Below are positions 1,385 through 44,905 of a stretch of 64,000 bases of DNA, piece by piece (positions within the stretch are counted from its first letter, which is position 1; each line of letters starts with the position of its first letter). Made by a program: the position numbers and the translations under genes. The notes beneath the pieces were generated by a model. It did no database searches. It was not told where the DNA came from and worked only from the letters and a program-made list of their open reading frames with translations. The stretch is from NCBI RefSeq assembly GCF_013179735.1, contig NZ_JABMEG010000001.1:3162001-3226000 (forward strand), given 5' to 3'. Source of the stretch: Permianibacter fluminis. GTDB taxonomy: Bacteria; Pseudomonadota; Gammaproteobacteria; Enterobacterales; Permianibacteraceae.

Positions 1385-3580
1385 ATGCAGAAAACCCGTA
1401 CCTCACCGAAAAACGCCCTGATTGCCAGAACGCTGGTTACTGCCACTCTCGTTGCCACACTGGGCACCAGCATCAGCCATGCCGACGAGACCACCACCCC
1501 GACGGGGTCGCCGGCGATGCTGGCCGCATGGACCGGCCCCTACGGTGGCGTCCCGGCCTGGGACAAGGTCAAGCCGGAGGACTTCGGCGCCGCGTTTACC
1601 GCCGCCATGGCCGACTCACGCGCCCGGGTCGCCAAAATCGCCAGCAATCCCGACGCACCCACCTTCGCCAACACCATCATCGAACTGGAACGCTCCGGCC
1701 GACTGCTGGATCAGGTCTACACCTATTACGGCGTGCATTCGAGCACGCTGAATCTCGGCGAGATGCCGAACATCCAGCGCGATCTGGCGCCCAAGCTGGC
1801 CGCGTTCAATGATGAAATCAATCAGAACGAACCGCTGTTCAAGCGCGTTGAGGCGGTTTACAACAGCCCGGACAAAGCCAAGCTGACGCCGGAAGAACAG
1901 CGTCTGGTCTGGACCTATTACAACGGTTTTGTCCGCTCCGGCGCGACGCTGAATGCAGAACAAAAAGCCCGCATCACCGAGATCAACGGTCGGCTGGCAA
2001 CCTTGTTCAACAACTTCAGTCAGAATCTGCTCGACGACGAAAGCAATCTGTTCACCGTGGTCGAAAACGAATCGGATCTGGCCGGCCTGCCAGCTGATTT
2101 GATCGCCGCCGCCGCCAGCAATGCCGAAGCACGCAGCCTCAAAGGCAAATGGGTCATCAACAACACCCGTTCCTCGATGGAACCGGTGCTGGTCAATGCC
2201 AGCAATCGCGCCCTGCGGGAAAAAGTCTGGCGCACCTATTTCAGCCGTGGCGACAACGGTGGCAAAACTGACAATAACTCCATCATCACGGAAATTCTGA
2301 AGCTGCGTTTTGAGCGGGCCCAGTTGCTCGGTTACAAAACCCACGCCCACTGGCGCGTCGAACCGCAAATGGCCGGCACACCCGAGCGCGCAATGGCCTT
2401 GATGGAATCGGTCTGGACACCAGCCGCCGCGCAAGTGAAAGCCGATGTCGCGGCCATGCAAGCCATCGCCGACAAGGAAGAAGCCTGGATCAAGATTGCG
2501 CCGTGGGACTATCGCTACTACGCCGAGAAACTGCGCAAAGAAAAATACGATCTGGACATGAACGAAGTGAAACCCTATATGCAGCTCGACAAACTGCGTG
2601 AAGGCATGTTCTGGGCCGCCGGTCAGCTTTATGGTCTGAAATTCAAGCTGGTCAAAGGCCTGCCGGTGCAACACCCGGATGTCACCGTTTACGAAGTGAC
2701 CAATGCCAAGGGCAAACACGTCGGCCTGTGGTATTTCGACCCGTACGCACGGCCGGGCAAACGTTCCGGTGCCTGGATGAATGCCTACCGCGGTCAGGAA
2801 AAGCTCGATGGCAACGTGACGCCAATCGTCTCGAACAACTCCAACTTCGTGAAAGGCCAGCCGGGTGAACCGGTGCTGATCTCCTGGGACGATGCGGAAA
2901 CCATGTTCCATGAATTTGGCCACGCCCTGCATGGTATGCTGTCGGATGTGAAATACCCAAGTCTGGCCGGCACTTCCGTCGCGCGTGACTTTGTCGAATT
3001 CCCGTCGCAGATCAACGAGCACTGGCTGTCGACGCCGGAAGTGCTGAACAAATTTGCCTTGCACTACCAAACCGGCAAACCGATTCCGAAAGCACTGGTC
3101 GACAAGATCGAGGCGGCAGAAACCTTCAATGAAGGCTTCAAGACCATGGAATACCTCGCTTCGGCCGTCATCGACATGAAACTGCATCTGGCCGGTGGCG
3201 AGACCATTGATCCGGACAAGTTCGAACGTGAAGAACTGCAGAAGCTCGGCATGCCGGCAGAAATCGTCATGCGCCACCGCACGCCGCAATTCGGCCACGT
3301 GTTCTCGTCCGATGGCTATTCGGCCGGCTATTACTCCTACCTGTGGTCAGATTCACTGACCGCCGATGCCTGGGAAGCCTTCGGCGAAGGCAAAGGCCCG
3401 TGGGACAAATCCGTAGCCGAACGCTTCCGCAAGACCATCCTGTCTGCCGGCAACACCAAGGACCAAGCGGAAGAATTCCGCGAATTCCGCGGCCGCGATG
3501 TCCAAACCGATGCCTTGATGCGCAAGCGCGGCTTTTTGCCGAAAGCAGGCGGCAGCAGCGGTAAAAAAGCGGGTCAGTAA
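1385..3580 (+). CDS. dcp: Exported peptidyl-dipeptidase Dcp-like M3 metallopeptidase
   Basis: Zinc oligopeptidase that removes dipeptides from the C-terminus of peptides. The zinc motif HEFGH lies at residues 509-513 of the 731-residue product, followed by the Dcp-type stretch RDFVEFPSQINEHW. A start at 1385 with GAGG upstream gives a clean Sec signal peptide (basic start, hydrophobic core, SHA cleavage before DET); an in-frame ATG 15 codons earlier (1340) would hide the signal. Length is a little over the usual 680 residues because of the signal and N-terminal linker. The signal peptide suggests a periplasmic enzyme, as for some gammaproteobacterial Dcp homologues; cytosolic E. coli OpdA is the other related group. 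It ends in a strong bidirectional terminator shared with the converging gene. Confidence 0.9.
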   Translation: MQKTRTSPKNALIARTLVTATLVATLGTSISHADETTTPTGSPAMLAAWTGPYGGVPAWDKVKPEDFGAAFTAAMADSRARVAKIASNPDAPTFANTIIELERSGRLLDQVYTYYGVHSSTLNLGEMPNIQRDLAPKLAAFNDEINQNEPLFKRVEAVYNSPDKAKLTPEEQRLVWTYYNGFVRSGATLNAEQKARITEINGRLATLFNNFSQNLLDDESNLFTVVENESDLAGLPADLIAAAASNAEARSLKGKWVINNTRSSMEPVLVNASNRALREKVWRTYFSRGDNGGKTDNNSIITEILKLRFERAQLLGYKTHAHWRVEPQMAGTPERAMALMESVWTPAAAQVKADVAAMQAIADKEEAWIKIAPWDYRYYAEKLRKEKYDLDMNEVKPYMQLDKLREGMFWAAGQLYGLKFKLVKGLPVQHPDVTVYEVTNAKGKHVGLWYFDPYARPGKRSGAWMNAYRGQEKLDGNVTPIVSNNSNFVKGQPGEPVLISWDDAETMFHEFGHALHGMLSDVKYPSLAGTSVARDFVEFPSQINEHWLSTPEVLNKFALHYQTGKPIPKALVDKIEAAETFNEGFKTMEYLASAVIDMKLHLAGGETIDPDKFEREELQKLGMPAEIVMRHRTPQFGHVFSSDGYSAGYYSYLWSDSLTADAWEAFGEGKGPWDKSVAERFRKTILSAGNTKDQAEEFREFRGRDVQTDALMRKRGFLPKAGGSSGKKAGQ

Positions 3581-6590: not shown

Positions 6591-7082
6591 GTGTCGATTG
6601 AAAACCCCACCGCCAAGACCTCCTCGCTCCCTGCCCGCGAGCGTTTGAAAGAGTTCTGGGTTGATGTGTTCGTGATGAACACGTTTTCCTATGCGGTGGC
6701 GGCGCCGCTGGAGCTGATCGTCGCCGACATGAGTTGGCAGGCGCATTTAAAAGTGCGCTTGATGGGCTTGCTGATCAATTCGCTGATCGGCCGGCCTTAT
6801 GGCGTATGGCGGGAATATGTCGTGCAGCGGACCGGCATGAACGAAGCCAGCAGCGCGCTGAAGCGCTACTGGGTCGACTCGCTGGTATTCCTGTCGTTCC
6901 AGTTGCCGGTGTACGTGACCATCATGGCGCTCGGTGGCGCAGATCTGGCCGGTATTTTGAAAGCCGCCGGCACCGCCAGCCTGTTGGCGGGATTCCTCGG
7001 CCGCCCTTACGGCATCTACCTCGACTTTGTTCGCTCGCTGTTCGGTTTGAAACCGATGACGGCGAGCAGCACCCCGGCTTGA
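6591..7082 (+). CDS. alaE: AlaE-family L-alanine exporter
   Basis: Small inner-membrane protein of about 163 residues with four predicted membrane segments. The internal repeat INSLIGRPYGVWRE ... LGRPYGIYLDFVRSLF and the stretch FLSFQLPVYVTIMALGGAD match E. coli AlaE (149 residues), which exports L-alanine. The GTG at 6591 is preferred because it leaves a short soluble N-terminus; upstream in-frame starts would run through the leader hairpin and promoter. The Asp/Glu racemase gene follows after 12 nt, so the two are probably cotranscribed. No strong Shine-Dalgarno is visible before the GTG, so the exact start is uncertain. Confidence 0.8.
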   Translation: MSIENPTAKTSSLPARERLKEFWVDVFVMNTFSYAVAAPLELIVADMSWQAHLKVRLMGLLINSLIGRPYGVWREYVVQRTGMNEASSALKRYWVDSLVFLSFQLPVYVTIMALGGADLAGILKAAGTASLLAGFLGRPYGIYLDFVRSLFGLKPMTASSTPA

Positions 7083-7094
7083 ACGGAGCACAGC

Positions 7095-7793
7095 ATGGCC
7101 CTGATCACGAATTCGGTTGTCGATTCCAAACTGGTGGTTGGCGTCATTGCCGGCACGCCAATTGATACCCGCTTTGGCGTCAATTATCTCGATGCCCATC
7201 AGATCAAGGCTTATGGCCGCTCCATTTCGGAAACCCCGCAGCAGCAAACCGAATTGCAGGCACTGGACCGCAACCAACTGACCGAGCGGACCTTGCTGGT
7301 CATCGAGGAGCTGCAGCGCGCCGGTGCCAACGCCATCATGATTTACTGCAACTCGCTGAGCGGCGCCATTGATCTGGACCGCGTGCGCAAGCAGATTACC
7401 GTTCCGCTGGTGTCACCGCTCGATGTCTACAAAGAGCTGATCGGCAAATACCGCAAGTTTGGTTTGCTGGCGGCCAACTGCCAGAGCTGCGCCAACATTG
7501 AGCGGCTGATTATCGAAGGCGACAGCCAGGCCAAGGTGATCGGCGTCGGTAATTTGCAGATTGTTGAAGACATCGAGAAAGGTTATTCGCCGAAAGCCAT
7601 CATCCGCGATCATGCGTTGGTCGAAATCGGCTCCAGCCTGCGCATGAGCGGCGTCGAGATTCTGATCCTCGCCTGCACCCACTTTGAATATTTCTACGAA
7701 GATCTAAAGGGTCGGGTCTGTCTGGAAATTTTTGAACCGTCCGAGAAAATGGTCGAGCGGCTACAGCAGATGCTGCCGGCCGCTGCCGCCTGA
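7095..7793 (+). CDS. Aspartate/glutamate racemase-family protein
   Basis: A 232-residue protein of the Asp/Glu/hydantoin racemase fold. Both catalytic-type cysteines are present: Cys85 in MIYCNS and Cys194 in LACTHFEYF, each followed by the expected Asn or Thr-His. The start ATG is preceded by GGAGCACAGC. Family members racemise Asp, Glu or other amino acids without cofactor by two-cysteine acid/base chemistry; the substrate cannot be read from sequence. It sits 12 nt behind alaE, which suggests a joint role in amino-acid balance or D-amino-acid production, but this is inference. It is not the essential MurI type by overall sequence. Confidence 0.8.
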   Translation: MALITNSVVDSKLVVGVIAGTPIDTRFGVNYLDAHQIKAYGRSISETPQQQTELQALDRNQLTERTLLVIEELQRAGANAIMIYCNSLSGAIDLDRVRKQITVPLVSPLDVYKELIGKYRKFGLLAANCQSCANIERLIIEGDSQAKVIGVGNLQIVEDIEKGYSPKAIIRDHALVEIGSSLRMSGVEILILACTHFEYFYEDLKGRVCLEIFEPSEKMVERLQQMLPAAAA

Positions 7794-7796
7794 ATC

Positions 7797-7849
7797 GGTT
7801 CATTAATCAATCCGATTTACCATTCAGGTTCACCAATCAAACCAATTCA
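7797..7849. repeat. Two imperfect direct repeats after the racemase gene
   Basis: GGTTCATTAATCAATCC at 7797 and GGTTCACCAATCAAACC at 7827, each ending in an ATTCA. They lie in the 50-nt gap between converging genes. No function is evident. Confidence 0.5.
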
Positions 7850-8455
7850 GGCCTGCAGATCCCGCCAGATCGCCTGCCCTTTGCTGAGGCTGTCCAACAC
7901 CGCGCGGAATTCATCGCGATGGGTGATCGGCAATTGAATCTGCAGGTTCACACGCTCGCCATAGTGTTGGCTGAGCACGTTGGCGCCAATCCGGGCAAGC
8001 TCCCGCCTAACCGAAGCCTCAAGCGCAAAGGCAAACGAAATTTCAGCGCTGCAGCTCGCTACCAGCGCCAGTGTCGGCAACAATGCCAAGGCATCTTTCA
8101 GGGCTTGGCTATAAGCGCGCACCAAACCACCACTGCCGAGCAAGGTGCCACCGTAATAGCGGCTCACCACCACAACCACTTCCGCCAATTCGCTATGTTG
8201 CAAAAGATTCAGCAGCGGCCGCCCTGCAGTACCCACCACCTCGCCATCATCCGAACAGGCAACATCTGCGGTGTTGCCGGGCATGCCGGCGATGTAGGCA
8301 AATGCATTGTGGGTCGCGTCGGCAAATTCGGCGCGCACACTGGCAATCACTTGCTCGGCCTCGCTGCGTGAGCCAGCCCGCGCGACGGTCGCAATAAACC
8401 GGCTGCGCTTGACTTCAATTTCATGGCGCAAGGTGGCAGCAGGAACGCGATTCAC
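7847..8455 (-). CDS. yigZ: YigZ / IMPACT-family protein
   Basis: A 202-residue protein with the N-terminal IMPACT (UPF0029) domain, seen as EVKRSRFIATVARAGS, THNAFAYIAG and the later stretch DDGEVVGTAGRPLL followed by SRYYGGTLLGSGGLVRAYS, then the C-terminal DUF1949 ferredoxin-like domain. This is the usual bacterial architecture and length. The bacterial role is poorly defined; eukaryotic IMPACT modulates translation stress signalling. It is convergent with the racemase gene and upstream of the HExxH protein gene on the same strand. Confidence 0.9.
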   Translation of the reverse strand: MNRVPAATLRHEIEVKRSRFIATVARAGSRSEAEQVIASVRAEFADATHNAFAYIAGMPGNTADVACSDDGEVVGTAGRPLLNLLQHSELAEVVVVVSRYYGGTLLGSGGLVRAYSQALKDALALLPTLALVASCSAEISFAFALEASVRRELARIGANVLSQHYGERVNLQIQLPITHRDEFRAVLDSLSKGQAIWRDLQA

Positions 8456-8581: not shown

Positions 8582-9974
8582 GGCCGGTACCACTTTTGGT
8601 CGCCGTTTCACCGGTGCCGGCGGGTGCAGGCAACCCGTGTTGCAGGACCTGTTTCAGCCATGCGCCAAATTCAGCTTCGATGGTCGACATCGGTTTGCCC
8701 AGCACCTGTTCCACCCGTTTCAGCGCATCCTGATGCGGATTGTCGGCCAGCGCATCGAGATCACGGTCGCGAAAACTGCGATAGACGTCAGTCAGTTTGC
8801 CCTGCTCTTGCAGATACAGAATGAAATAGCGGTTGGCCGCCATTTGCACCGCGAGCTCGCGATTGGACTGACCGTCCTGCCAGCGGTCACGCTCCAGCTC
8901 CTGCACATCAAACGGAAACCAGTCGGAACTGATGACCTTGGCTACCGGAGGAATGTCGCGGGAAAAGCGTTTCAGCAATTCGCCGCGCCAATTGACCAAG
9001 CCGAACAGCTCCTGCTGGCGAAACGTCGAGACTTCATACAGCGAGGCAATCCCCTCGTCCAGCCATTGCGGAATGTCGCCGAAGCCGTTGCGCACACTCA
9101 AATGAAACAGCTCGTGAAACAGGGTTCCAGTATTGACTCCGGTCACCATTGCCACGGCCGATTGATCATTGCGATAGGTGTAGCCAATGGTATTGGGATT
9201 GACCGCCAAACCGTGCAGGCGCTCGGCCAATTGTTGCAGCTCGGCAACGGTTGGCACCAGATAGACACTGACCACACTGGTCGGTGCCGTGATGGCATAA
9301 CGCTGTTGCAAAAAGGCGAAATAGCGATCCAGTTTTGTTGCCAGTTGCTCCAGCTCGCTGACGCTATGTCCGGCGTGGCTTGCAAGCACAAAGCGACCAT
9401 AGCCATGCACGGTGAACTCGGGCACCAAACTGCTGATCTTGGCCTTTGCTTCCGGTAACTGCTGTGGCGTGAACAAGCGTGCCGAGAACTCGGCTTCTGC
9501 AATTTCGCGCACATGCCTCGCCGGATAGGCAAACAAGGAGTTCTCCGAACCCAGGTCGTAATACATCTTGCCTTGCCCGGAAGCGCCCGCCACCAGCACG
9601 GCATGAATGGCGCCAGCAACAGCGAGACGTTCACCTGACAAACCCGCTTGCTGGCACTTTTGCAGTTCGGTCTGCACCTGCTGTCGACTGCTATCATCCA
9701 GCGCGTAGTTATACAGCGTGAAATTCAGCACCCGCAGCCCCCACTCCTGCCGTGCCGGTAAACGACAGGCACTGGTGCCGAGCATGTAGTCCACTTCGGC
9801 GGTGCGACCAAAGGCTTGTTTGCGAAATTCCAGCAGCGCCGTCAATGCCGCCGCGTAATCACCGGCGACCCACTTTTCTTTGCCGGTTTGATACGAAGAT
9901 TCGGCAAAACCCGGCGGAACATAGGCCATCAACAACCAGAGCAGGCTTGACAGCAAAACGCGAGTGGCAGCCAT
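8571..9974 (-). CDS. Secreted HExxH protein, peptidase-MA-like
   Basis: A 467-residue protein with a Sec signal peptide (hydrophobic core, cleavage after GFA) and an N-terminal helical region containing five cysteines. A gluzincin site HELFH lies at 287-291 with WLDEGIASLYE about 20 residues later; that spacing and the second glutamates fit the peptidase MA (M61-like) fold. The substrate is unknown. The stop codon lies within the last of four 16-nt repeats. The preceding gene on the same strand ends 24 nt upstream, so the two are probably an operon. I recognise the fold signature only, not a named family. Confidence 0.65.
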   Translation of the reverse strand: MAATRVLLSSLLWLLMAYVPPGFAESSYQTGKEKWVAGDYAAALTALLEFRKQAFGRTAEVDYMLGTSACRLPARQEWGLRVLNFTLYNYALDDSSRQQVQTELQKCQQAGLSGERLAVAGAIHAVLVAGASGQGKMYYDLGSENSLFAYPARHVREIAEAEFSARLFTPQQLPEAKAKISSLVPEFTVHGYGRFVLASHAGHSVSELEQLATKLDRYFAFLQQRYAITAPTSVVSVYLVPTVAELQQLAERLHGLAVNPNTIGYTYRNDQSAVAMVTGVNTGTLFHELFHLSVRNGFGDIPQWLDEGIASLYEVSTFRQQELFGLVNWRGELLKRFSRDIPPVAKVISSDWFPFDVQELERDRWQDGQSNRELAVQMAANRYFILYLQEQGKLTDVYRSFRDRDLDALADNPHQDALKRVEQVLGKPMSTIEAEFGAWLKQVLQHGLPAPAGTGETATKSGTGQKP

Positions 9975-9998
9975 GATCTGCCCTCCGTAACAAACGCC

Positions 9999-10679
9999 TC
10001 AGGGCGAAGCGTTGGCAGCAGGTGCCGGGTGGGTCTCGCATTCCGGACCGGGAAACAGCGCACAATTTTCCGCTTTGAGTTGCGCGGCCGACGCCAACGG
10101 GATTGGCGCCGCCGTGCTTGGTGCGGCAACTGACGGGGACAGATAAACCGGCACATCGCGAACATCAAAGCTGAACGGGATCACCAGCGTGATCGCCATC
10201 AGCAATGTGCCAAGGCTGGCCAGAATCAAACCGGGCGAACTGCTGGTGATGGCGCCCTTGAAACCATTGCCTTCGACGTTGAGGCTGGTACCCGCCTCGC
10301 GCAATTTGCCGAGCACGAAAATGGCGCCGACCAATGCCAGGATCATGCCGGTCAGAAAACCCAGATAACGGGTCCAGGCGCGCAACATCAACGTGACATT
10401 GACTTGCTGGTAGCGGTGCTCGATCACTTTTTGCTCAAGTGCCACCAGCGTTTGCCATTGCGCTTGCGCAACCGCGACCGCGTCGGTTGCAGCCGGCGCA
10501 TAGACAATGCTGTCACCGGAGCGTATTCGCACTTCCTGGTATAACGAGAACAACAGCACGACGCTGACAATCAGAAAGAACGCTGCCATCAGCGCAATGC
10601 TGCCTGCCATGAACGGCAGCAGCTTGCGTTGCCAGGCTTGTTCATCACGAGCGGCGGCTGCGGTGGCATCCATGACCAT
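9999..10679 (-). CDS. Predicted membrane protein of unknown function
   Basis: A 226-residue protein with three hydrophobic helices: residues 20-50 (LLPFMAGSIALMAAFFLIV), near 115-135 (FLTGMILALVGAIFVLG) and near 155-175 (LILASLGTLLMAITLVIP), followed by a short Ala/Pro-rich tail that contains two cysteines. The start at 10679 is chosen because GGAGG lies 4 nt before it. No family was recognised. Close spacing (24 nt) to the secreted HExxH gene points to a shared job, perhaps anchoring or sensing. Confidence 0.6.
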   Translation of the reverse strand: MVMDATAAAARDEQAWQRKLLPFMAGSIALMAAFFLIVSVVLLFSLYQEVRIRSGDSIVYAPAATDAVAVAQAQWQTLVALEQKVIEHRYQQVNVTLMLRAWTRYLGFLTGMILALVGAIFVLGKLREAGTSLNVEGNGFKGAITSSSPGLILASLGTLLMAITLVIPFSFDVRDVPVYLSPSVAAPSTAAPIPLASAAQLKAENCALFPGPECETHPAPAANASP

Positions 10680-10915
10680 ACGGACCTCCACAACCGGGGA
10701 ATTTGTTTGATACGGCTTGGTCAGTATAGTCCGTTCTTGCGTGGTAACGCGGCCAGTGGCCTTCTGGCCGAATCAGTGCCGGTCATTCGGCTGTTACCGG
10801 TGCAGCAACGTCGGCTTGTTCAAGCGATGGCGGCTAGCGGCGCTACTGTTCAAGCCTTCTGCACCGCGCGATCTCGACTGGCACAGCAGGCCTGAGACAA
10901 CGCGGCACATTCGCC

Positions 10916-11443
10916 TTATTCGAATCGGACGGTCAGATGCTGGCTGTCGTCGCCGATGCCGATCTCGCCGTCCTGTATCGTGCACTGCAGGCTCATGTTG
11001 CGCTGAGCCAGTTTGCCAAGCGCTTCGACGGTTTCGTTGTTCAGGGCACGCACGGTGACGTTGTCGAGCTTGCTCAGCGCATCCTGCATCTGGCTGCGCC
11101 AAACCGCCGCGCTGCGACTGTTGTAGGTGATGATCACCACCTGCTGGGCCCTGCCGGCAGCCTTGCGCAGACGCTTTTCGTCCGGTTGGCCAAGCTCAAT
11201 CCACAGTTCGATTTCATCGCTGAGGCTTTTCTGCCAGAGATCTGGCTCATCTTCGGTACTGATGCCCTTGGTGAACGCCAGGCGCTCATGGGCGTAAACC
11301 GCAAACGCCAGCAAGCGCACCATCATCCGCTCATCGGTTTCCGATGGATGCTGGGCAATGGTCAGCATGTGCGTCTCGTAGTAATGCCGATCCATGTCGG
11401 CAATCTGTAACTCGGCTTTGAAGATGGTGGCTTTCAGTGCCAT
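10916..11443 (-). CDS. yaeQ: YaeQ-family protein
   Basis: The start MALKATIFKAELQIADMDRH and the internal motifs ERLAFTKGIS, DEPDLWQKSL and IELGQPDEKRLRKA are characteristic of YaeQ, a PD-(D/E)xK-fold protein of about 180 residues restricted mainly to gammaproteobacteria. An 11-codon upstream extension to 11476 is open, but the conserved N-terminus begins at 11443. YaeQ was once linked to RfaH suppression; its biochemical role is unsettled. Confidence 0.9.
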   Translation of the reverse strand: MALKATIFKAELQIADMDRHYYETHMLTIAQHPSETDERMMVRLLAFAVYAHERLAFTKGISTEDEPDLWQKSLSDEIELWIELGQPDEKRLRKAAGRAQQVVIITYNSRSAAVWRSQMQDALSKLDNVTVRALNNETVEALGKLAQRNMSLQCTIQDGEIGIGDDSQHLTVRFE

Positions 11444-34293: not shown

Positions 34294-34485
34294 GGTTTAG
34301 ACAACGGCCGAGGTGACTACAGCGAGGCGCGAATGCTACCACGGGCGAGGTCGTGGTTGGTGGCCGATAGCAGCGCAAAGCCAGCAGTGCACGACTGCGG
34401 CGCAGGCATCAGCGACTAGCAATATGCCACTAACGGACGATCACACCGATCTAGATGATTGAAGGAGACTGAAACGGGGAAATGG

Positions 34486-42121: not shown

Positions 42122-42448
42122 TCAGACAGTGAAGCTTTCGCCACAACCGCACTCACCCTTGACGTTCGGGTTGTTGAACTTGAAACCTTCGTTCAAGCCT
42201 TCGCGGACGAAATCGAGTTCGGTGCCATCGAGATAGACCAGACTCTTCTTGTCGATGATGACGTTGACGCCCTTGTCATTGAACACGGCGTCTTCTTCTT
42301 CATTGATGCCATCGACAAATTCCAGCACGTAGGACAGACCGGAACAGCCGGTCGTCTTGACGCCCAGGCGGACGCCAAAGCCTTTGCCGCGATTGGCCAA
42401 AAACTTGCGCACCCGATCTGCTGCGCTATCCGACAACATGATGGCCAC
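42122..42448 (-). CDS. iscA: A-type Fe-S carrier IscA
   Basis: A 108-residue protein with the three A-type cysteines at 35 (TTGCSGLSY), 100 and 102 (GECGCGESF). It carries iron or clusters to client proteins. Standard position after iscU, 25 nt downstream. Confidence 0.97.
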
Positions 42449-42473
42449 GATGCTCGCTCCTCAACCGGTTCGC

Positions 42474-42866
42474 TCAGTTCTGGGTCTGTTCGCGCTTGGC
42501 TTTGTAATCGGCCACCGCTGCCTTGATGGCATCTTCGGCCAGCACCGAGCAATGGATCTTGACCGGCGGCAAGGCCAGCTCTTGGGCGATATCGGTGTTC
42601 TTGATCAGCGCAGCTTCGTCGAGCGTCTTGCCCTTGACCCACTCGGTCACCAGCGACGACGACGCAATCGCCGAGCCACAGCCATAGGTCTTGAACTTGG
42701 CATCTTCGATGCGACCATCCTTGCCGACCTTGATCTGCAGCTTCATGACGTCGCCGCAAGCTGGCGCACCGACCATGCCGGTACCGACATCGCTGTCGTT
42801 CTTGTCGAGCGAGCCGACATTGCGCGGATGCTCGTAATGATCGATGACTTTATTGCTGTATGCCAT
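42474..42866 (-). CDS. iscU: Fe-S scaffold IscU
   Basis: A 130-residue scaffold. Cluster ligands Cys37, Asp39, Cys63, His105 and Cys106 have E. coli numbering; the HscA recognition site LPPVK is at 99-103. GAGGTG lies just before the ATG. The upstream gap to iscS is unusually long (172 nt) because it holds a decayed copy of the iscS 3-prime end. Confidence 0.98.
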   Translation of the reverse strand: MAYSNKVIDHYEHPRNVGSLDKNDSDVGTGMVGAPACGDVMKLQIKVGKDGRIEDAKFKTYGCGSAIASSSLVTEWVKGKTLDEAALIKNTDIAQELALPPVKIHCSVLAEDAIKAAVADYKAKREQTQN

Positions 42867-42928
42867 GGTACACCTCGTAAAGCATGAATTCTGTTTCGAG
42901 CAACGCCTGATTCAGTGCAAAGACCGGC

Positions 42929-43006
42929 TTAGTGCGCGGCCCATTCGACTTGGCTCAAGTCGACGCCATCCTTGTACATTTCCCGGAAGTGCCGAGACAT
43001 TTCACG
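42929..43006 (-). pseudogene. Remnant copy of the iscS 3-prime end
   Basis: Read on the minus strand this encodes [19 protein letters not shown] followed by VEWAAH and TAA. The real iscS ends [27 protein letters not shown] at 43039. About 77 nt match with roughly 13-15 differences and one 3-nt indel. The 5-prime rest of the gene is absent. A 23-codon frame starts at the ATG at 43000, but no expression is implied. Confidence 0.85.
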
Positions 43007-43038
43007 CCGCCTCAAACACCTCCGACGTTTGCGCGTTC

Positions 43039-44253
43039 TTAGTGCGCAGCCCACTCGACTGTGGAGAGGTCGACCCCGTCTTTGTACATTTCCCACAGCG
43101 GTGACATCTCACGCAAGCGGGTGACGGCCTTGCGAATTTCCGCAATGGCAAAATCAATCTGCGCTTCGGTGGTGAAGCGGCCGATGGTGAAACGCAGCGA
43201 ACTATGAGCAAGCTCATCGGAACGACCGAGCGCGCGCAGCACGTACGACGGCTCAAGGCTGGCCGAGGTACAGGCCGACCCCGACGATACCGCCAGATCT
43301 TTCAACGCCATGATCAGCGATTCGCCTTCGACATAATTGAAGCTGACATTGAGGTTGCCAGCGACCCGGCGGTCGGCATCACCGTTCAAATGCACTTCTT
43401 CCAGATCCTGGATGCCGTTCCAGAGCTTGTGACGCAATTGCAGCACGCGCTCGTTTTCTGCCGCCATTTCCAGTTTGGCCAAACGATAGGCTTCGCCCAT
43501 GCCGACGATCTGATGGGTCGGCAGCGTGCCCGAACGCATGCCACGTTCGTGACCACCACCGTGCATTTGCGGGGCGATACGGGCACGCGGCTTGCGGCGC
43601 ACATAGAGCGCGCCGATGCCTTTCGGGCCATAGGTCTTGTGACTGGTCAGTGACATCAGATCAACCGGAGTCTTTTCGACATCGATGACCAATTTGCCCG
43701 TTGATTGGGCCGCATCGACGTGAAACAGAATGCCGCGGGCGCGAGTCATGGCGCCGATGGCGTCGATATCCTGGATGACGCCAATCTCGTTGTTGACGTG
43801 CATGATCGACACCAGAATGGTGTCAGCACGCAAACTGGCTTCGAGCTTGGCCAGATCAATCAGGCCATTCGGCTCCGGATCCAGATAAGTCACCTCATAG
43901 CCCTGCCCTTCCAGATAGCGGCAGGTATCCAGCACGGCCTTGTGCTCGGTCTTGCAGGTGACAATGTGCTTGCCCTTGTCCTTGTAGAACTCGGCCACGC
44001 CCTTGATAGCAAGGTTGTCCGATTCGGTCGCGCCGGACGTCCAGACGATTTCACGCGGATCGGCGTTGATAAGTTCCGCAACAAACTGGCGCGCCTCTTC
44101 GACCGCTTCTTCGGCTTGCCAGCCGAACTTGTGCGAGCGCGAAGCCGGGTTGCCGAACAGGCCATCCTCGGTCAGGCATTGCATCATTTTTTCCGCGACG
44201 CGCGGGTCAACCGGCGTGGTCGCCGAGTAGTCGAGATAAACCGGCAATTTCAT
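43039..44253 (-). CDS. iscS: Cysteine desulfurase IscS
   Basis: A 404-residue PLP enzyme that takes sulfur from cysteine for Fe-S clusters and tRNA thiolation. PLP Lys206 (SHK), active-site Cys328 ([20 protein letters not shown]) and the start [20 protein letters not shown] all match E. coli numbering. The C-terminal VEWAAH tail, which contacts IscU, is the segment that is duplicated just downstream. An upstream extension to 44292 is ignored. Confidence 0.98.
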
Positions 44254-44288
44254 AGGGGTTACCGCTTGCATGAGCATCAAACTCCGCC

Positions 44289-44831
44289 TCAAACGCCAGA
44301 AGCAACGCCGCGCTTGGCGACGGCTGGCGTGGATTCTTCCAATTCAATCGCGATCAGTCGCGCACTATCGATACGAGCGTTATCGCTTTTTGCATCACGC
44401 CGATGCTGACGTTCGGCAATGTGCTGGACCTCGCGCCGGGCAACGACCTGCGCCAGGCTGATACCGCTCAGAAAGTTGTAAATCTGGTTGCTGAGATCGA
44501 GCCAGAGCCGATGGGTCAGGCACTCTTCGCCTTCGTCACAGGTGCCGGTGCCGCCACAGCGGGTGGCGTCGATGTTTTCGTTCACAGCAGTAATGACCTC
44601 GGCCACATTGATGGCGTCGGCGCTGCGGCCAAGCCGGTAACCGCCACCGGGACCACGGACACTGGTGACCAGCCCTTCGCGGCGCAGCTGGGCAAACAAC
44701 TGCTCCAAGTAGGACAGCGAAATGCCTTGTCGCGCCGAAACCTCGGCCAGCGCCACCGGACCTTCGTCATGGTGCAGCGCAAGATCCAGCATGGCGGTAA
44801 CGGCGTAACGGCCTTTGGTGCTCAGTTTCAT
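44289..44831 (-). CDS. iscR: Fe-S cluster regulator IscR
   Basis: About 180 residues. Rrf2-type winged helix ([49 protein letters not shown]). The [2Fe-2S] ligands Cys92, Cys98, Cys104 and His107 have E. coli positions. It represses its own operon when the cluster is loaded. The start at 44831 is canonical. The C-terminal tail is about 15-20 residues longer than in E. coli. Confidence 0.97.
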
Positions 44832-44873
44832 GATATCCAACCGGCAGGAATGCCCGAGCGGGCAACTGGGGCA

Positions 44874-44905
44874 ATTATACAAAAGACCGAGTGTTTTAGT
44901 AAATT
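44874..44905 (-). promoter_or_regulatory. isc operon promoter with IscR-like box
   Basis: Minus strand TTTACT (-35, 44903-44898), 18-nt spacer, perfect TATAAT (44879-44874). TTTACTAAAACACTCGGTC overlaps the -35 and spacer and resembles the type I IscR site (GACTrwwwyAGTC-like), so autoregulation is likely. Confidence 0.65.

Follow-up and report, generated by a model that had tools for sequence, protein, structure and literature searches.

The window, by which we mean the whole stretch of 64,000 nucleotides that was analyzed, contains the genes iscR, iscS, iscU, iscA and hscB on the minus strand. The coordinates of the features discussed below are given in Table 1. The working IscS protein was 83% identical to the IscS of the same-genus genome G001, and phylogenetic analysis placed the body of the protein in one cluster with that of G001 (support 100/99). 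Two start codons are candidates for iscS, at 44277 and at 44253 (MKLP...), and the family profiles begin at the latter. The iscR product was additionally compared with the profile NF008110 and scored 223.2, which is under the cut-off of 275. Note that the stop codon of iscS occupies positions 43039–43041 and iscU starts at 42866, both on the minus strand, which leaves a gap of 172 nt between the two genes, exactly as an earlier note on this DNA had stated.

Table 1. Features of the isc locus in the window and the basis of their assignment
Feature	Position	Strand	Basis
iscR	44289..44831	-	TIGR02010 IscR, 209.9 bits (cut-off 207.55)
iscR stop and iscS leader, likely source of the 17-mer	44281..44297	-	sequence match
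iscS, working copy (gene of copy A)	43039..44277	-	TIGR02006 IscS, 737.5 bits (cut-off 643.2)
Copy A of the repeat, last iscS codons and stop	43038..43094	-	direct repeat D1
DNA separating the iscS stop from the repeated block	42985..43038	-	contains pieces like the iscR–iscS junction and like LREMS
17-mer GGTGTTTGAGGCGGCGT, 15/17 like 44281–44297	43004..43020	-	tied for best local hit, both strands of the window searched
ORF ATG...TAA, 23 codons and stop	42929..43000	-	read from sequence
Copy B of the repeat, the remnant	42928..42984	-	direct repeat D1, HMMER match, tail pattern
Spacer from the remnant to iscU, with GAGGTG ahead of the iscU start	42867..42928	-	sequence
iscU	42474..42866	-	TIGR01999 iscU, 227.6 bits (cut-off 192.4); 91% identical to G001 IscU

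The 3' end of iscS is present a second time between iscS and iscU. A search of the window for repeats of at least 30 nt lying at most 400 nt apart gave two families. The longer one is formed by the two iscS tails (57 nt, 81% identical, 110 nt apart), namely copy A in the working gene and copy B, the remnant; the other family measures 33 nt at 79%. A HMMER search revealed a second IscS match in the genome, covering query residues 387–417 with 71% identity (E 1.1e-4), and a degenerate pattern of the tail had exactly two matches in the window and was found in 0 of 100 shuffles. A 331-nt DNA query from the region gave no match besides itself in the whole genome at E up to 0.001. Upstream of the 57-nt block, a weaker homology reaches back to the codons for LREMS (11 of 12 nt), and this match was equalled by 3 of 20,000 simple shuffles and by 2 of 2,370 window pieces. 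The figures of about 77 nt and about 80% identity given in the earlier note were confirmed. In the remnant, the SPLW stretch is changed to SRHFR with three extra nucleotides and the frame is kept; 17 codons and the stop are intact.

Among 715 distinct ORF ends taken from the window and from loci chosen around iscS, a list that includes spurious frames and is thus a rough control, four have a downstream repeat of 36 or more of 54 nt within a distance of 300 nt. Three of them are the iscS cases; the fourth, at window position 34419 on the plus strand, has 38 of 54 nt repeated in this range, and its ORF may not be a gene.

The short ORF that runs through the remnant reads ATG TCT CGG CAC TTC CGG GAA ATG ... 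TAA, and a weak GAGG ends 9 nt before its ATG. A comparison of the 23-residue peptide with Pfam and NCBIfam gave no match. The remnant contains a perfect 8-bp hairpin with a 3-nt loop at 42945–42963 (TCGACTTG AGC CAAGTCGA), which is absent from the working tail; 22 of 200 shuffles folded equally well. The stretch from the working stop to the repeated block can be folded as an imperfect hairpin (z −1.9, with 10 of 200 shuffles as good), and the fold of the gap together with the iscS end was no better than chance (z −0.47). No promoter- or terminator-like sites were found in the region 42800–43200, and the Rfam search of positions 42400–44900 gave 0 matches at E up to 1. The spacer between the remnant and iscU opens with GCC after the TAA, and the same is seen after iscS in G001.

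Divergence of the two copies and origin of the spacer

Over a block of 54 nt, copies A and B showed 11 nucleotide differences, which correspond to seven synonymous codons and a single amino-acid change, namely T in the gene and Q in the remnant. This divergence was simulated with the gene held at omega 0.05, with the same mutational time for the remnant, and conditioned on 10–12 differences. None of the 17,863 accepted simulations of a freely drifting remnant had one amino-acid change or fewer. When omega 0.5 was set for the remnant, 15 of 29,021 simulations were as conservative, and the share was 1.5% at omega 0.2 and 14% at omega 0.05. Because neutral drift of the remnant since the split is rejected by these simulations, the remnant probably formed the end of a functional iscS, or was itself selected, for most of the divergence. 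As a duplicate, its sequence would be compatible only with a copy that worked until recently or is still working. The word "decayed", which the earlier note had applied to the second copy, therefore fits poorly, since the intact codons and almost entirely synonymous differences leave only the LREMS–SPLW part altered. Parsimony over the 54 nt with G001 as the one outgroup assigned three silent changes to the remnant and about seven to eight to the gene. The Q residue is common to the remnant and G001.

The 40 nt after the working stop were then compared with the window, and their best local match was the iscR–iscS junction, tied with one place on the opposite strand. The junction match consists of GGTGTTTGAGGCGGCGT in the spacer and GGCGTTTGAGGCGGAGT at the junction, with 15 of 17 nt identical. 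In both pieces, 11 nt separate the TGA, which is the iscR stop at the junction, from the ATG that follows. Only 10 of 4,000 dinucleotide shuffles matched the junction as well as the spacer did, and other disjoint pieces of the window scored as high in 1 of 2,015 cases under strict scoring and in 5 of 2,015 under loose scoring. The possibility that the spacer is a copy of the iscU leader was rejected, as 2,462 of 4,000 shuffles were as good. We take this as moderate evidence that upstream DNA of iscS sits between the copies, the match being a short one that was first spotted by eye. A spacer of this kind would be expected if the whole iscS gene had been duplicated with its upstream region and most of the second gene had then been deleted.

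It may well be, with the chances about level in our judgement, that the remnant is the last piece of a second, tandem-duplicated iscS that collapsed by deletion. The tandem duplication would have taken in iscS along with its leader and the end of iscR. Both copies would then have been under selection at the protein level while their silent sites diverged, a step that the substitution pattern supports. Subsequently, a deletion would have removed nearly the whole second copy and joined its start region to the Met codon of LREM, possibly via a shared ATG. A piece of the leader with its ATG, the last codons with the stop and the old spacer to iscU would be what remains. The remnant is most likely functionless today and lengthens the gap, with iscU having its own GAGGTG ahead of the start. 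The same-genus genome G001 (n = 1) has a single iscS and an iscS–iscU gap of 34 nt, and two complete adjacent iscS copies were not seen in this lineage, where the same-genus sample is one genome. Two origins had been offered in the earlier note, and the one in which iscS was duplicated and the copy lost its 5' part is the better supported of them, owing to the junction-like spacer and the protein-level selection.

Extra iscS tails in other genomes

The iscS–iscU gap was readable in 27 of 29 loci of relatives and ranged from 17 to 72 nt, except for a gap of 147 nt in G002. This 147-nt gap (locus L006) contains inverted repeats of the GTCCGGCTTGAGCCGGAC kind. In this comparison of gaps, which the earlier note had proposed, G001 showed no remnant.

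The order was represented by 394 genomes, a sample of a larger group, which were searched with the tail pattern, allowing up to one mismatch. The pattern was found in 307 of the 394 genomes, with more than one match in G000 (two), G196 (two), G274 (three) and G295 (two). The two matches of G295 are located on different contigs, and the second is in other sequence, judging by the letters. In a protein search of the same order set, G000 and G274 were the only genomes with multiple matches. The survey of the class included 339 genomes, G000 and some of the order genomes among them; 143 had a match, and more than one was found in G000, G499, G654, G677 and G729. The matches in G677 and G729 are different tails on different contigs. 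In G499 (L107/L108) and G654 (L109/L110), two iscR–iscS–iscU sets with the same iscS tail were observed, located 22 kb and 101 kb apart, respectively.

Extra tails within the iscS–iscU gap were seen only in the window genome and in two genomes of the family f12, in which 24 genomes were searched: G196 has one such tail and G274 has two. The tails are near-identical within each of these two genomes, so that the history in f12 may be plain recent local duplication. In the tree, G196 clusters with G216, which has no extra tail, and not with G274, which means at least two changes, that is, two gains or one gain with losses. The spacers of G196 and G274 are similar to each other, and the G196 unit matched G274 with 89% identity over 82 positions, the tail included. 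The ATG that follows the spacer opens only four codons in both genomes (MSLH, then a stop), with synonymous differences between them. Hairpins were observed in the f12 spacers, namely at 1460–1497 of L064 (G196; z −5.0) and at 443–483 and 541–581 of L059 (G274; z −2.2). A mobile hairpin was considered for f12 and rejected, since the 96-nt unit of G196 had no good match outside iscS in six genomes (next best E 0.1).

Under loose scoring, 24 (G274) and 30 (G196) of 4,000 shuffles matched the genome's own iscR–iscS junction as well as the f12 spacers did, and 2,860 and 3,590 of 4,000 were as good against the own iscU leader. Each of the three spacers (window, G196 and G274) scores highest against its own junction, and the G274 spacer matches it through to the start ATG. 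Under strict scoring, the f12 junction matches were not significant (349 and 1,814 of 3,000 shuffles as good). Other disjoint pieces of the locus were as good in 0 of 89 (G274) and 8 of 301 (G196) cases with loose scoring and in 5 of 89 and 35 of 301 cases, respectively, with strict scoring. The full G274 spacer is better matched on the other strand inside an upstream gene of the locus (score 29 vs. 18 for the junction). This place, at about 2629–2664 (+) of L059 on the strand opposite to isc, is the best strict match of the G274 spacer in the locus and may be either chance or a second source of the spacer. On these comparisons, which are mixed, the three cases may have an origin in common, as G274 suggests and G196 indicates only weakly.

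In two other f12 genomes, IscS ends abnormally just after SPLW/SPVW (L087 of G093, 7000–8193; L088 of G163, 9937–11130). These breaks were considered as insertion sites, and this was rejected; they were reread as deletions, as no iscU-like ORF of at least 110 residues was found in the fetched stretches. In these stretches, iscR and iscS are followed by another gene, which we take to be a peptidase. Judged from the fetched stretches only, the IscU-binding tail seems to have been lost together with iscU.

Alternative origins of the remnant

The f12 cases bring in a different origin, in which slippage or template switching would have duplicated about 110 nt locally (the iscS end with the spacer) and a complete second gene never existed. 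The extra tails of G196 and G274 are near-identical to their own iscS end, two of them stand in tandem in G274, the spacers fold and the start of the repeated block falls close to the same codon as in the window. These extra tails of another family, which begin near a common codon, are the unusual part, and they raise the question of whether such events tend to happen in the iscS–iscU gap or the leftovers are retained for some reason. In the window, however, the copies differ at 20% of the block and almost only silently, which is not expected of a free-floating tail and would fit a local duplication only if the tail itself were selected or often converted. We consider this origin of the window remnant unlikely.

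The silent divergence could also be explained without a long-lived duplicate if DNA of another species' iscS had replaced the native end by partly illegitimate recombination. The tail of copy A would then be foreign, and copy B would be the displaced native end. Recombination with another iscS allele was the second origin offered in the earlier note, which had also proposed aligning both copies to related iscS genes. The alignment, made with G001 only, showed copy B to be the nearer one (11 vs. 15 nt differences for copy A), the spacer after copy B begins like that of G001, and the codons of copy A are rarer (1.1 percentile in resampling). The distance of copy A from G001 is, however, ordinary for the gene, as 109 of 389 windows of iscS were at least as different. 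The codon rarity, striking at first, became weak under a wider control (5th percentile of 15,982 windows; 8 of 45 ORF ends as extreme, iscS counted), and codon usage was rejected as proof of a foreign tail. In addition, the clustering of the IscS body with G001 speaks against a foreign allele, and the spacer resembling the iscR junction is left unexplained by it. We regard the replacement as rather improbable.

A further possibility considered was the scar of a departed integrative element, for which the iscS 3' end would have served as attachment site and which would have brought in a new end for the gene. In tRNA genes, such elements are typically recognized by a regenerated gene end together with a displaced fragment (PMC4383910). 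Among 18 viral contigs with the tail pattern, however, nine had a full iscS, nine had an unrelated protein and none had the tail alone. The widely spaced pairs of identical tails in G499 and G654 proved to be two iscR–iscS–iscU sets each, and the 54-nt spacer of the window leaves no room for a gene and is similar to host DNA. No integrase or element was found between two iscS tails in the surveys of 394 order and 339 class genomes, in which the gaps were opened in a minority. Tail matches at E up to 10 were obtained for 4 phage records and 26 plasmid records. The element scar, with no support across viral contigs, phages, plasmids and class-wide tail pairs, was rejected as highly improbable. 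As for the viral contigs with a full iscS, iscU was located within 400 nt in five of the nine and not in the other four. The four viral-classed contigs with a full-length iscS and no iscU within 400 nt (L095, L098, L100 and L106) possibly carry phage-borne desulfurases.

Finally, the 23-codon ORF could be a selected mini-gene, translated and kept since the IscS tail peptide acts, for example by meeting IscU. The ORF is intact and in frame with the tail, its ATG stands after the weak GAGG, and conservation is at the protein level. According to PMC2854127, the IscS C-terminus is needed for IscU binding: IscU contacts the last IscS helix (Arg379–Lys391), and IscS without 376–404 fails to bind IscU. 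The remnant retains the residues after this helix, but the SPLW part of the helix is changed. The earlier note had held that a conserved small gene in relatives would refute a mere relic, and no such gene was found: the remnant is absent from G001 of the same genus, the ORF from the equivalent ATG ends after four codons in G196 and G274, and the extra tail of G196 is frameshifted. Conservation before the deletion would explain the pattern equally well. A working mini-gene is thus possible and not favoured, given its absence in G001 and its breakage in f12, and we hold selection on the peptide for such a role to be very unlikely. Still fainter in our estimate is a broader idea, in which duplicates would repeatedly, and in different families, collapse at the same Met codon to their own start region and tail; in the window the intact 23-residue peptide would be translated with its tail under selection, perhaps tuning the pairing of IscS with IscU or the translation of iscU.

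Comparison with known systems

Taken as a relic of a collapsed tandem duplicate, the remnant would illustrate on a small scale how a gene of an essential type may be duplicated in an operon and the duplicate then collapse, leaving a start region and a tail. The literature searched on iscS with integrase, attB or genomic islands, on iscS–iscU intergenic duplication and on gene remnants gave no title on such a remnant. The gene order and the families around the remnant match those of the known iscR–iscS–iscU–iscA operon, and the difference is the iscS–iscU gap, which is 172 nt in the window vs. 17–72 nt in 26 of the 27 relatives read. As at Islander-type attachment sites (PMC4383910), a complete gene end is followed in the window by another copy of it; in contrast to such sites, no element is present here and the 54-nt spacer resembles the host iscR–iscS junction.

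As in a truncated tandem paralog or pseudogene remnant, a short homologous 3' piece adjoins the working gene here and does not do so in the related G001. The remnant of the window is, however, diverged at silent sites and conserved as a protein, and it seems to have retained a leader with an ATG. We take it to be of the kind generally named a partial gene duplication or truncated tandem paralog. This kind of event is ordinary, and the noteworthy part is the protein-level conservation together with the extra tails in another family.
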